Part shown: one piece after another, positions 3,351 to 8,876 of the stretch | How positions within the stretch are numbered: position 1 is the stretch's first letter | Layout: each line of letters opens with the position of its first letter | DNA from: an uncultured Caryophanales bacterium | Lineage (GTDB): Bacteria; Bacillota_I; Bacilli_A; RFN20; CAG-826 | Assembly: GCA_946185585.1 (NCBI GenBank) | Contig: CAMHJP010000003.1 | Location: 1-53,496 of the forward strand | Reading direction: 5' to 3' | Length of the DNA stretch: 53,496 nucleotides | Position numbers and translations under genes: made by a program | Notes under the pieces: generated by a model | What the model saw: the letters and a program-made list of their open reading frames with translations, nothing else | Database searches by the model: none | What the model was told of the DNA's origin: nothing

Positions 3351-4595
3351 ATGCAACAACCACTCGCTGATTTATTAAGACCAAAATCATTTGATGATGT
3401 TTTAGGTCAACAACATTTACTAGGAAAAGGAATGGCTTTTAGAAAGGTTGTTTCCTCTAATCACATACCAAACATGGTTTTCTATGGTCCTCCAGGTGTT
3501 GGAAAGACCACGGTTGCAAACATTATTGCGGAGAAGACAAATATGTCTTTATATAAGCTTAATGGAACAACCGCATCAACAGACGATATTAAGCAGATCA
3601 TTGCGAATATCAATTCAGTTCTCACTCAAAACGGAATCCTTTTATATTTGGATGAAATCCAATATTTAAATAAGAAACAACAACAATCTCTTCTAGAGTT
3701 TGTTGAAAAAGGCGATATTACATTAATCGCTTCGACAACCGAAAATCCATTCTTCTACATCTATCCAGCCTTACTAAGTAGATGCACAGTTTTTGAATTT
3801 AAACCTTTATCAACAAAAGATATTTCTAAAGGTCTACTCAAAGCTGCTGAACAATTTGGATTAGTCTTTGAAGATGACGCTTTAGAATATCTTGCTCTTT
3901 CTGGTAACGGAGATATGCGTAAAGCATTAAATAATTTTGATTTCGTTCGTTACGCAGTGAAGAAAGGTAGTAATAAAATTACTCGCGACATTGTTGATCA
4001 AGTCGCGATTAAAGGAAATATTTCCTATGACCGTAGCGAAGATAAACACTACGATAATCTTTCTGCTTTAATGAAATCTTTACGTGGATCTGATCCAGAT
4101 GCTGCAATCTATTATCTAGCAAAGATGCTTGAAGCAGGTGATATTATCGCCGCTTCAAGAAGACTACTTTGTAGTGCGAACGAAGATGTTGGTCTAGCCT
4201 ATCCACAAATTATTCCAATTGTGAAAGCGGCAGTGGATACTGCTCTTCAACTTGGTATGCCAGAAGCATATCTACCTTTAGCAAATGCAGCTGTTTTAAT
4301 TGCAACTGCACCAAAATCAAATTCTGCTCCAATGGCGTATTGGAAAGCCCAAGCCGATATTGCTAAAGGAAAAGGTGTTGGAGTTCCTCGTGCCTTACAA
4401 AACACCCATTATGATGGTGCTGATGCCAAAGTAAAGGGACAACACTATAAATATCCTCATGACTATAAACATCATTGGGTGAAGCAACAATATCTTCCAG
4501 ATGATTTAAAGAATGAAACTTATTACCAATATGGTGATAATAAATATGAACAAGCCATTAAAGAATACTGGGAAAAGATTAAACACAATGACTAA
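3351..4595 (+). CDS. rarA: Replication-associated recombination protein A (AAA+ ATPase RarA/MgsA)
   Basis: PLADLLRPKSFDDVLGQQHLLG, Walker A GPPGVGKTT, C-terminal MgsA-like region. Confidence 0.93.
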   Translation: MQQPLADLLRPKSFDDVLGQQHLLGKGMAFRKVVSSNHIPNMVFYGPPGVGKTTVANIIAEKTNMSLYKLNGTTASTDDIKQIIANINSVLTQNGILLYLDEIQYLNKKQQQSLLEFVEKGDITLIASTTENPFFYIYPALLSRCTVFEFKPLSTKDISKGLLKAAEQFGLVFEDDALEYLALSGNGDMRKALNNFDFVRYAVKKGSNKITRDIVDQVAIKGNISYDRSEDKHYDNLSALMKSLRGSDPDAAIYYLAKMLEAGDIIAASRRLLCSANEDVGLAYPQIIPIVKAAVDTALQLGMPEAYLPLANAAVLIATAPKSNSAPMAYWKAQADIAKGKGVGVPRALQNTHYDGADAKVKGQHYKYPHDYKHHWVKQQYLPDDLKNETYYQYGDNKYEQAIKEYWEKIKHND

Positions 4596-5520: not shown

Positions 5521-6404
5521 ACACTATTTATGTCCTTGGATCATTAAATATGGATCTTGTGATTGAATCCGACAAGATTCCTACAAAAGGCGAAACTGTT
5601 CGTGGTGAAAATTTTTCAACCTGTCCTGGAGGAAAAGGATTAAATCAAGCTATCGCTGCTGCTAAACTTGGTGCCAAAGTAAAAATGCTTGGCGCCATTG
5701 GCTATGACTCGTTCGGTGAGAAAATGTTTAATGCGTTAAAGGAAAACAATGTTGATGTTTCTCATATTAAGATGGTTAAAGGTGTTTCTAGTGGAATCGC
5801 GATGATCCTTTTACACAATAAAGATAATCGAATCATTCTCGACTTGGGAGCCAATTTAAAATTAACAAAAAGTGATGTTGATAGTTTTCTTAAAGGAGCT
5901 AGTGCTGGCGATGTTTTCTTATCTCAATTAGAGAATAGTCTTGAACTTGTCGGTTATGCCCTAGAGGTCGCAAAACGTAAAAAAATGCGTACCGTAATTA
6001 ATCCTGCTCCATGTGATATTGGAATAAAAAAATATGCCAGATTTATCGATGTTATTACTCCAAATAGTGGAGAATTGCGTATGCTTCTAAAATACGGAAA
6101 ATACCAGCAAAAACCGGATAAATTAGGAATTTCCACAATTGTTGAAACTAGAGGAAAGGACGGTTATTGCTGTTATAAAGGAAAAGACACAATTTCTGAA
6201 AAAGCAGTCAAAGTAAAAGTGGTTGATACAACTGGTGCAGGCGATGCATTTAATGGTGCGTTATGCTACCAGCTTGCCCAAGGAAAAGAAATTAATAAGA
6301 CATCATTAAACTTTGCTTGTTTGGCTGCATCAATATCGACAACCAAACACGGAACAAGCGTTTCTTCTCCAACACTGGATGAGATAAGCAAATTCAAAAA
6401 ATAA
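5517..6404 (+). CDS. rbsK: Ribokinase (PfkB family)
   Basis: GSLNMDLVIESDKIPTKGETVRG, PGGKGLNQA, DTTGAGDAFNGAL; ATGA overlap with the preceding gene. Confidence 0.93.
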   Translation: MNTIYVLGSLNMDLVIESDKIPTKGETVRGENFSTCPGGKGLNQAIAAAKLGAKVKMLGAIGYDSFGEKMFNALKENNVDVSHIKMVKGVSSGIAMILLHNKDNRIILDLGANLKLTKSDVDSFLKGASAGDVFLSQLENSLELVGYALEVAKRKKMRTVINPAPCDIGIKKYARFIDVITPNSGELRMLLKYGKYQQKPDKLGISTIVETRGKDGYCCYKGKDTISEKAVKVKVVDTTGAGDAFNGALCYQLAQGKEINKTSLNFACLAASISTTKHGTSVSSPTLDEISKFKK

Positions 6405-6409
6405 AATTC

Positions 6410-6433
6410 AAGCTCTTCACTAAGAAGGGCTTT
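6410..6433 (+). terminator. Rho-independent terminator after rbsK
   Basis: AAGCTCTTC-actaa-GAAGGGCTTTTT. Confidence 0.75.
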
Positions 6434-6639
6434 TTAAATTCCCATTCAATTTAAGGTGAAATTTTTTCTTACAGTGTAAGAAGTTTTCTTTTTTGAAAAA
6501 TTGAGTGCAAATTTTTCTTTTAAAAACGGATTTAGTTAATGAGAGCGAAAAACTCTCAGGCAAAGAAAAGCCTTAAAAACTCGGAACGGGAACTCCTGAC
6601 TACATGCGTCATTCACGCAATAGAAAGGAGGCAACCGAA

Positions 6640-6723
6640 ATGAAAACTAATAAAGAAATCATCTATGGTTTCATGTTGGTAATTGTTGACCTTGTTTATT
6701 TGATATTGGAATTAATCCGATAA
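6640..6723 (+). CDS. 27-aa hydrophobic micro-peptide, candidate type I toxin (module 1)
   Basis: SD AAAGGAGG at 6624-6631; MKTNKEIIYGFMLVIVDLVYLILELIR*. Not in the ORF track because of length. Paralogous layout to 6900-6986. Confidence 0.7.
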   Translation: MKTNKEIIYGFMLVIVDLVYLILELIR

Positions 6724-6724
6724 A

Positions 6725-6783
6725 GAAAAAACGAGTCCTTGACTCATTGACATAAAGTAGTCTTGGAGGATCCCGTTCTTATG
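6725..6783 (-). ncRNA. Candidate antisense (antitoxin) RNA of module 1
   Basis: Minus-strand promoter TTGCAA(6817-6812)-16 nt-TGC-TATAAT(6795-6790); terminator GAGTC-aag-GACTC-g-TTTTTT ending about 6725. RNA overlaps the toxin mRNA 3'UTR. Confidence 0.6.
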
Positions 6784-6789
6784 TTTCTC

Positions 6790-6817
6790 ATTATAGCAAA
6801 GCTAAAAATCTTTGCAA
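6790..6817 (-). promoter_or_regulatory. Antisense promoter, module 1
   Basis: TTGCAA-16-TATAAT with extended -10 TGC. Confidence 0.7.
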
Positions 6818-6899
6818 TACGACAAAGACAAGTCGTTAAAACTCAGAACGAATACTTTCCTAGGGTAATTCAAAAAATTATTTGAAGGGAGGTGATACG

Positions 6900-6986
6900 A
6901 TGAAGCAATTGAAAGATTTAGAGTCACTCTTTATCTTAGTTGTGATCATCTTGTTTCTTCTTTTGCTCCTAAAAGTTGCAAAATAA
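6900..6986 (+). CDS. 28-aa hydrophobic micro-peptide, candidate type I toxin (module 2)
   Basis: SD GGGAGGTG just upstream; MKQLKDLESLFILVVIILFLLLLLKVAK*. Same flanking architecture as module 1. Confidence 0.72.
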   Translation: MKQLKDLESLFILVVIILFLLLLLKVAK

Positions 6987-6987
6987 A

Positions 6988-7041
6988 AAAAACAAATCCC
7001 TAGACTGACACTTTGACCGGTGTTGGAAGGATTCGTTCTTG
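6988..7041 (-). ncRNA. Candidate antisense (antitoxin) RNA of module 2
   Basis: Minus promoter TTGCAA(7075-7070)-16-TATAAT(7053-7048); the RNA ends in a structured segment followed by GTTTTTTTT on the minus strand. Confidence 0.58.
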
Positions 7042-7047
7042 TGTCTC

Positions 7048-7075
7048 ATTATAGCAAAGTTTTGTTACTTTGCAA
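7048..7075 (-). promoter_or_regulatory. Antisense promoter, module 2
   Basis: TTGCAA-16-TATAAT, same spacing and extended -10 as module 1. Confidence 0.68.
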
Positions 7076-7102
7076 CATGCCAAACTTAAAATGTAATCAT
7101 CA

Positions 7103-7130
7103 CCGTAATAACTAAGTTATTATGTTTTTT
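7103..7130 (+). terminator. Terminator downstream of the tandem modules
   Basis: GTAATAAC-taa-GTTATTATG followed by TTTTTT. Confidence 0.6.
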
Positions 7131-7193
7131 CTACTTGCGTATATGTGCATATAATGGTTAAATAATACCCGTTCGCCCAAATAAGGAGAAATT

Positions 7194-8876
7194 ATGATAC
7201 TTAAGAAAATGAATGGCGTTCAATTTAAAGAATTGATCGTCAGTGGAGCTAAAAATCTTAGAGCCCATTATCAAGAAGTAGACAATTTGAATGTCTTCCC
7301 GGTCCCAGATGGTGATACGGGTACAAATATGTGCCGCACAATCGAAGGCGGCGTTAGTAACATCATCAAAGAAGAAAGCAAATCCTTAAGTGATATTGCT
7401 AAAGTTCTTTCTAAAGGAATGTTACTCGGAGCTAGAGGTAACTCTGGTGTTATTCTTTCCCAAATCTATCGTGGTATTTGCCGTTCATTTGAAGGCAAAC
7501 AAGAAGTTGACGCTAAACAATTAGCCGAAGCTTATCGAGTTGGTGTAAAGCAAGCTTATGCTGCTGTTATTACACCGGTCGAAGGAACAATTCTGACCGT
7601 CTTTAGAGAAGCAACAGAATATGCTGCCAAGAAGATGACTAAGGAATCCACGATTAACGAATTCTTTGAACTTCACTTAAAACAAGCTTCTAAGTCATTA
7701 AAAATGACCAAAGAACTTCTTCCAGTATTAAAAGAAGCCGATGTCATTGACTCTGGTGGTGCTGGTTACGTCTATATCGTTAAAGGTATTGTTAAATACT
7801 TAGGCGGAGAAGTTATTGATGCTGAACTAGACTTAGGTAAGAAAGATGAAAAAGGTGAGGAAAAACCAGCGATTGATTTTTCTGCATTCTCTCGTGATGA
7901 TGAATTAACCTTTGGTTACTGCACAGAATTCATCTTACGTTTACAGAGTAAAAAAGTAAACGTTGATGAATTCGATGTTCAAACAATTATTGATATTTTA
8001 AATTCCAAAGAAATCTCTGGTGACTCGATCGTCGCCTTAAAAGACGATGACGTCGTCAAAGTTCACGTTCACACCAAAGATCCAGGTTTAGTTCTTCATC
8101 AGATGCGTCAATTTGGTGAATTCTTAACCACTAAAGTTGAAAACATGTCTCTTCAACATAATGAAAACATGACTGAAGAAGAAAAACTTGCTTCTCAAAA
8201 AAGAGAACACAAGAAATACGCTATTGTTGCTGTTGCTCAGGGCGAAGGAATCTGTTCTCAATTCGAAGCGTTAGGTGTTGATGTCATTGTCAAAGGAAAC
8301 CAAACAATGAACCCATCTACCGAAGACTTCTTAAAAGCATTCAAACAATTAGATGCTGAAAACATTATTGTTTTCCCAAATAACAAAAACATTATTATGG
8401 CTGCTAAACAAGCAGCTGGATTATATAAAGCTGCGAAAGTGAAAGTTGCTGCAAGTAACTTCATCCCACAATGTTACTCAGCTCTAACAATGTTAGATTT
8501 CTCTAGTGATGATCTTGAACTCATCATGGGTAACTTTAACGCTGCTTTAAGAAACGTTGTTTCTGGATCAATTACAACTGCTATTCGTAGCACCAGACTC
8601 AACGGAGTTAACATCCGCAAAGGTGAAAATCTTTGTATTGTTGATGGCAAAGTTGTTGCCTCAACAATTAATAAGTACCATGTTGTTGGTGATCTTTTAA
8701 GAAAGATCCCTGACATCCAAGACAAACAACTTCTCACAGTTTTCTTTGGTAAGGATTGCACTGAAGCCGAACGAAAGAAAAACATGGATTGGGTGAAACA
8801 AAAATACCCACATCTTGAAGTTGGTTGTGTTGATGGTGGACAAGCCGTTTATAAGTTCTTATTAGCTATTGAATAA
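7194..8876 (+). CDS. fakA: DAK2 domain-containing protein, fatty acid kinase catalytic subunit-like (YloV/FakA family)
   Basis: LNVFPVPDGDTGTNMCRTIEGG, GARGNSGVILSQI, DSGGAGYVYI; SD aaggag. Confidence 0.9.
   Translation: MILKKMNGVQFKELIVSGAKNLRAHYQEVDNLNVFPVPDGDTGTNMCRTIEGGVSNIIKEESKSLSDIAKVLSKGMLLGARGNSGVILSQIYRGICRSFEGKQEVDAKQLAEAYRVGVKQAYAAVITPVEGTILTVFREATEYAAKKMTKESTINEFFELHLKQASKSLKMTKELLPVLKEADVIDSGGAGYVYIVKGIVKYLGGEVIDAELDLGKKDEKGEEKPAIDFSAFSRDDELTFGYCTEFILRLQSKKVNVDEFDVQTIIDILNSKEISGDSIVALKDDDVVKVHVHTKDPGLVLHQMRQFGEFLTTKVENMSLQHNENMTEEEKLASQKREHKKYAIVAVAQGEGICSQFEALGVDVIVKGNQTMNPSTEDFLKAFKQLDAENIIVFPNNKNIIMAAKQAAGLYKAAKVKVAASNFIPQCYSALTMLDFSSDDLELIMGNFNAALRNVVSGSITTAIRSTRLNGVNIRKGENLCIVDGKVVASTINKYHVVGDLLRKIPDIQDKQLLTVFFGKDCTEAERKKNMDWVKQKYPHLEVGCVDGGQAVYKFLLAIE

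Follow-up and report, generated by a model that had tools for sequence, protein, structure and literature searches.

Our study points to a new, previously unnamed family of type I toxin-antitoxin-like modules, which is our best reading of the sequences. With a probability of roughly three in four, each unit is an autonomous module of this kind, with a proposed switch between its leader and its 3'UTR. We infer the type I assignment from sequence, where it is strongly supported; every feature of the class that can be tested in this way was found, namely a peptide gene with a Shine-Dalgarno (SD) sequence, an antisense gene and a sequestered SD. The analysis shows a structured mRNA that should encode a hydrophobic, single-helix peptide of 25-29 residues, an opposing promoter that lies just past the 3'UTR and should drive a short, terminated RNA with full complementarity to this region, and a leader with the predicted capacity to pair either with the SD, as an anti-SD hairpin, or with the 3'UTR, as a long-distance pairing (LDI). 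A preliminary description of this DNA had proposed a possibly new type I family in tandem, a view that the sequence supports, every in silico test able to overturn it having come out in its favour.

Two head-to-tail units occupy positions 6541-7075 of the window (the whole stretch of 53,496 nucleotides that was analysed), and their starts lie 262 nt apart. The locus is laid out as follows.

6404-7194: gap flanked by PfkB-type and DAK-type kinase genes, with no conventional ORF
6541-6557, plus strand: unit 1, extra 5' hairpin GAGAG-cgaaaaa-CTCTC, limited to the first units of this locus
6558-6573, plus strand: unit 1, conserved 5' hairpin AGGC-AAAGAAAA-GCCT, with covariation
6573-6588, plus strand: unit 1, leader element TTAAAAACTCGGAACG, conserved across units
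6582-6596, plus strand: unit 1, LDI 5' arm CGGAACGGGAACTCC, doubling as anti-SD arm
6626-6631, plus strand: unit 1, Shine-Dalgarno sequence AGGAGG
6640-6723, plus strand: unit 1, putative toxin ORF MKTNKEIIYGFMLVIVDLVYLILELIR, 27 aa
6722-6783, minus strand: unit 1, predicted antisense RNA of about 60 nt, start placed from the -10
6765-6780, plus strand: unit 1, LDI 3' arm GGAGGATCCCGTTCTT, template for the antisense 5' end
6790-6817, minus strand: unit 1, antisense promoter TTGCAA-16-TATAAT with TG extension, 10/12 matches
6819-6836, plus strand: unit 2, conserved 5' hairpin ACGAC-AAAGACAA-GTCGT, with covariation
6835-6850, plus strand: unit 2, leader element GTTAAAACTCAGAACG, conserved across units
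6845-6860, plus strand: unit 2, LDI 5' arm AGAACGAATACTTTCC, doubling as anti-SD arm
6887-6894, plus strand: unit 2, Shine-Dalgarno sequence GGGAGGTG
6900-6986, plus strand: unit 2, putative toxin ORF MKQLKDLESLFILVVIILFLLLLLKVAK, 28 aa
6985-7041, minus strand: unit 2, predicted antisense RNA of about 57 nt, with a closing stem and then U8, ends inferred
7025-7040, plus strand: unit 2, LDI 3' arm GGAAGGATTCGTTCTT
7048-7075, minus strand: unit 2, antisense promoter TTGCAA-16-TATAAT with TG extension, 10/12 matches

The common architecture claimed for the two units was found again in both: a hairpin of 4-5 bp with an AAAG-rich loop, TTAAAACTCRGAACG, the SD, the hydrophobic ORF of 27 or 28 aa, the 3'UTR and the opposing promoter. 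Each 3'UTR ends in CGTTCTT, directly followed by the extended -10 promoter of the minus strand. The units had also been called unrelated in sequence, which is wrong; three families of direct repeats (28-45 nt, 71-82% identity, spacing 258-262) recur from one to the other and mark them as the diverged copies of a tandem duplication. As for the two 5' hairpins described per unit, the second is indeed conserved (6558-6573 and 6819-6836), but the one placed first in unit 2 (6796-6815) corresponds to unit 1's antisense promoter and is not conserved as an mRNA hairpin across units. The extra hairpin of unit 1 is identical in L035 and L036, and altered yet still paired in L038 and L039. Three elements were absent from the earlier account: the 5'-3' LDI, the SD/anti-SD hairpin, and the antisense terminator abutting the toxin stop codon. 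The predicted mRNAs of the window's two units fold much more stably than dinucleotide shuffles, with z values of -6.4 and -5.05.

An intrinsic terminator lies at 6410-6432, just 3' of the upstream kinase gene, which suggests that the array is not transcribed by read-through from that gene. No clear sense promoter for the two units is visible in 6433-6540. Across the family, a -10 adjoins the conserved hairpin in 28/71 first units, against 22/404 controls, and in only 5/30 later units. Several first units with one neighbour gene (L147, L125, L146 and L153) carry GTTGT-N(5-8)-ACAAC just 5' of the sense -10, which is either the terminator of the upstream gene or an operator.

Searching for relatives by DNA similarity identified them in 21 of 96 genomes. 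We then relied on a 49-nt covariance model (R1) built from 30 leaders, from which the ORF and the 3' part of the module were left out. Within the family it had matches in 51 of 196 genomes, with E values down to 1e-20; at the level of the order the figure was 58 of 279 genomes, and all but one weak match fell in the same family. The leader model alone thus retrieved more than 100 units from one uncultured family of Bacilli, mostly from ruminant-gut MAGs (all data come from MAGs). Such a search of relatives for the paired layout had been proposed at the outset, and both the ORF and the antisense promoter recurred although the model used neither. Outside this family, 395 genomes of the class and 392 of the phylum gave only weak, partial matches; those elsewhere in the class were rejected as members, since the rest of the module is missing. 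When 84,980 species genomes were scanned for the exact pattern, 54 stretches came up, all in MAGs of uncultured Erysipelotrichaceae, Bacillales or Bacilli, and every sample source named for them is a ruminant or deer gut compartment. An origin in mobile elements was considered and rejected: the full leader pattern had no match in IMG/VR, and plasmids and phages gave no blastn match.

The units form 77 arrays, 57 with a single unit and 20 with two to six, at a unit spacing of 229-266 except for one of 429. The window's own locus holds three (L114), four (L177) or six (L176) units in relatives, so copy number changes in place. In a set of 30 units the leader hairpin covaries, with 94% of its cells paired and 14 of them compensatory, and shifted registers fail. 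A resemblance of AACTCTCAGGCAAAG to glycine riboswitches was dropped for want of Rfam support.

The opposing promoter noticed past the 3'UTR is present in both units and recurs at a fixed distance in the family. An antisense -10 (TTCTT-N(2-10)-[CT]ATTATA) stands about 200-230 nt 3' of the leader in 101 of the 114 leader matches with enough downstream sequence, and at 264 of 3000 (9%) random positions in the same loci. Aligning the units on this box brings out a TTG at -35 and TGNTATAATG, with an extended -10 consensus. In unit 1 the predicted antisense RNA ends in a terminator stem (6748-6730) and a U-run; an A-run of at least five, which would be read as the antisense U-run, occurs at the toxin stop codon in 76/93 units. 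Conservation of both promoter and terminator, established in silico, argues for an antisense gene overlapping the toxin mRNA.

The LDI joins the leader arm CGGAACGGA-gaCCTC to the complementary end of the 3'UTR, GAGG-cTCCGTTCTT. Over its eight pairs in 71 non-redundant units, 97.7% of cells are paired, with 41 compensatory cells, whereas registers shifted by 1-2 pair in 47-62%. Duplexes between cognate arms average -23.7 kcal/mol, against -16.9 for non-cognate ones (permutation sd 0.37), and the cognate arm is still preferred inside tandem arrays (-22.3 vs -16.3). The CCTC of the same leader arm also pairs with the SD, which is predicted to be sequestered in the truncated mRNA lacking the 3'UTR, with a mean of 7.65 anti-SD/SD pairs; this pairing too is cognate-preferred (-11.6 vs -9.7). 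Covariation supports the existence of both pairings, which are maintained and which compete for the same leader arm.

Which way this competition works is predicted by the thermodynamic model: the LDI would open the ribosome-binding site (RBS), and antisense binding would close it. Opening the RBS costs 7.8 kcal/mol in the full-length mRNA, compared with 12.0 when the 3'UTR is masked in imitation of a bound antisense RNA (65/66 units, p about 2e-12) and 12.1 when it is removed; the mRNA 3' end was assumed to lie past the LDI 3' arm. A foreign 3'UTR gives 10.7, a shuffled one 11.8, and neighbouring genes 6.3. Even when the mRNA is folded at full length, the SD is for the most part paired (mean unpaired probability 0.22 vs 0.13), so the switch rests on modelled opening energies.

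We propose the following course of events. While nascent, the mRNA would be kept silent by the leader anti-SD, which covers the SD. Once the 3'UTR is made, the LDI would pull the anti-SD arm off and leave the ribosome-binding site open, so that the mRNA would stay locked until its 3' end, the site of antisense action, has been made. The 5' end of the antisense RNA, a copy of the leader arm, would occupy the 3'UTR and block the LDI; the anti-SD would then close the SD again, and decay by RNase III would probably be triggered as well. Should the antisense supply fail, the peptide would be made and would perturb the membrane. Tandem units would be copies that have diverged, the specificity of LDI and antisense RNA differing from unit to unit. 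This inverted logic, whereby translation is possible in the LDI state and the antisense RNA takes the place of the leader arm in the 3'UTR so that the RBS recloses, is put forward tentatively, and we give it somewhat less than even odds.

The opposite direction is also conceivable, with the LDI as the inactive full-length state and 3' trimming as the step that activates translation, as in AapA/IsoA and Hok. AapA3 is characterised by an LDI together with an upstream anti-SD hairpin that is metastable (PMC6733600), such systems typically form multi-copy families on chromosomes, and the SD of the new module is, as said, mostly paired at full length too. But here the LDI engages the anti-SD arm instead of the SD, and in the model removal of the 3'UTR makes the RBS harder to open, both of which render this direction unlikely. 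We are just as doubtful of an antisense RNA that acts mainly in trans on the SD, the inverted repeat serving mimicry or RNase III decay and no intramolecular LDI. The antisense 5' arm has by construction the sequence of the leader arm, and the cognate preference of the anti-SD/SD pairing fits such a role; yet the covariation of the LDI extends past the SD-complementary part into AACGGA/TCCGTT, and relief of the RBS requires the cognate 3'UTR.

The peptides themselves are conserved. An ORF of 25-29 aa follows the SD in 95/100 complete units, starting with ATG, TTG, GTG or, once, CTG. Its product is hydrophobic (best 19-residue Kyte-Doolittle mean 2.1-3.4) with the consensus MKxxKE-LLxL-CLLLxLL-LLxK, charged at the N end and with K/R close to the C end in 81/84 peptides. 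Over 197 pairs, pS is 0.49, pN 0.16 and dN/dS 0.23, a signal that is lost in both shifted frames; the comparison indicates that the micro-ORFs are conserved under purifying selection, and a lack of such conservation in relatives had been named as a point that could refute the toxin reading. The RNA scaffold is intact in the remaining 5/100 units, but they have lost the start codon or acquired a nonsense codon, the pattern expected of decayed toxins. These units (L123, L139, L176 at 5057, L177 at 4946, and L179) keep the leader, the LDI arm and the antisense promoter. Purifying selection and a single hydrophobic helix with charged ends would also suit a small regulatory membrane protein under antisense control, and the toxicity of the peptide is putative. 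Nevertheless, we find such a protein decidedly unlikely: the modules are multi-copy, sequence-diverse and tandemly amplified, they are present or absent from one species to another and occupy 54 contexts, and decayed ORFs on intact scaffolds are typical of toxin-antitoxin modules, not of a partner-specific regulator.

Around the arrays we counted 54 distinct pairs of neighbours, mostly housekeeping genes, which include recA/rny, rpsO, fba and rpsR (as judged from the neighbour sequences), so the module is context-independent. A cis-regulatory leader peptide or attenuator of a downstream gene is for this reason rejected as extremely improbable: five arrays in this genus do precede the same DAK-type kinase gene, but against this stand the neighbour pairs, a downstream gene on the opposite strand in 15+5+1 of the 77 arrays, and a terminated antisense unit between array and downstream gene.

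Pieces of the leader have counterparts elsewhere. In three genomes of another family in the class, GACAAAACAAAGTCTTTAAAACTC, which combines the module's hairpin with TTAAAACTC, is followed by an SD, by a conserved ORF of 27 aa that differs from the module's (MKFLYELFKTMADVLIICNVNISDPKC) and by a terminator; the antisense promoter is missing (L181:1645, plus strand; L182, minus strand; L183:1621, plus strand). It may be a cousin of the module or a 5' RNA element common to both. Viral contigs carry at non-coding sites a 25-nt element, a paired hairpin with a CAAAG-NN-AAG loop plus TTAAAACTC, with no toxin module after it. Its sites lie just after a -10 box or tRNA genes, after terminators, or ahead of a capsid-like gene; stems are fully paired in 11/65 matches of the pattern, and the piece could be a 5' RNA element of wider occurrence. 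One genome contains about 15 copies of a repeated, RNA-like intergenic element, CGAG-AAGGAAAA-CTCG-TAAAAACCTCATAGACTTAACTCTT plus a terminator. Its loop AAGG and tail CCU correspond to the loop AAAG and tail CU of the toxin leader, which suggests a small H-type pseudoknot.

L273:2345-2371, minus strand: viral 25-nt element
L280:223-247, minus strand: viral 25-nt element
L269:916-942, minus strand: viral 25-nt element
L254:6775-6800, minus strand: viral 25-nt element
L262:611-635, plus strand: viral 25-nt element
L265:10273-10297, minus strand: viral 25-nt element
L257:109-134, plus strand: viral 25-nt element
L261:4058-4104, minus strand: viral 25-nt element
L305, L306, L308, L311 and L312 (genome G419): repeated intergenic element
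L290:3506-3528 and 3975-4023: repeated intergenic element

Known families gave no match. Rfam at its gathering threshold had none in the window or in 13 unit-bearing loci, and RsaJ, which surfaced at a relaxed threshold, was discarded as a chance match (E 0.91). Searched against Pfam, NCBIfam, PHROGs, PADLOC and PDB, the peptides returned nothing above chance; curated Pfam and NCBIfam toxin models, including TxpA/BsrG/Hol_Tox, gave none above cut-off for 25 members, and models of Hok, Hol_Tox, TxpA/Bsr and other toxins did not match either. The initial impression that the peptides lack an obvious match to known toxin families therefore holds in the Pfam and NCBIfam model searches. We found no description of the family in the literature consulted, mostly outside subscription journals. 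The result is a large, delimited family (more than 100 units, alone or up to six to an array) of apparently antisense-controlled micro-peptides, unannotated in current libraries, with a covariation set rich enough for direct testing of the RNA switch. Its tandem arrays with unit-specific pairing may be a natural archive of the divergence in antisense specificity that follows duplication.

Several known systems resemble the new module in part. Like Fst/Ldr (par of pAD1), it has convergent promoters, a short hydrophobic peptide with charged ends and a hairpin near the shared 3' region. It nonetheless lies outside Fst/Ldr on sequence grounds: the PXXXG motif occurs in 0/84 distinct peptides, the family model does not match, and the direct repeats DRa/DRb are missing, the LDI arms being inverted repeats. 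The zorO/orzO and zorP/orzP loci of E. coli O157:H7 are likewise tandem type I loci with a hydrophobic toxin of similar size, 29 aa (PMC11264685). They form an enterobacterial two-copy locus, unlike the arrays of up to six units described here, whose predicted antisense RNA overlaps the 3' end and whose sequence is unrelated. The hok layout includes an overlapping leader ORF, missing from the new module, and places its antisense elsewhere than over the 3'UTR. The two have in common a structured mRNA with paired 5' and 3' ends, known for hok (PMC6733600), but the new module has no Hok_gef match and its antisense RNA would overlap the 3'UTR.

In bsrG/SR4 of Bacillus subtilis, which also encodes a small hydrophobic peptide, the antitoxin overlaps the 3' end of the toxin mRNA, and its binding there extends SD sequestration from 4 to 8 bp (PMC6562991); a similar further closing of the SD is predicted for the new module. 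The latter differs in its peptide of 25-29 aa, in its 5' element, in having no match in Pfam, NCBIfam or Rfam, and in a covarying 5'-3' LDI whose cognate arm is predicted to open the RBS. With aapA/IsoA of Helicobacter pylori, the new module shares a multi-copy chromosomal family, a metastable upstream anti-SD hairpin and a 5'-3' LDI in the full-length mRNA (97.7% paired, 41 compensatory cells), although sequence and host are unrelated. In aapA/IsoA the SD is locked within the LDI and activation comes from 3' trimming (PMC6733600), whereas the model predicts the opposite here, the LDI freeing the SD (7.8 vs 12.1 kcal/mol). If the predicted direction is true, 5'-3' pairing within a toxin mRNA can switch its translation on, the reverse of the rule set by AapA and Hok.
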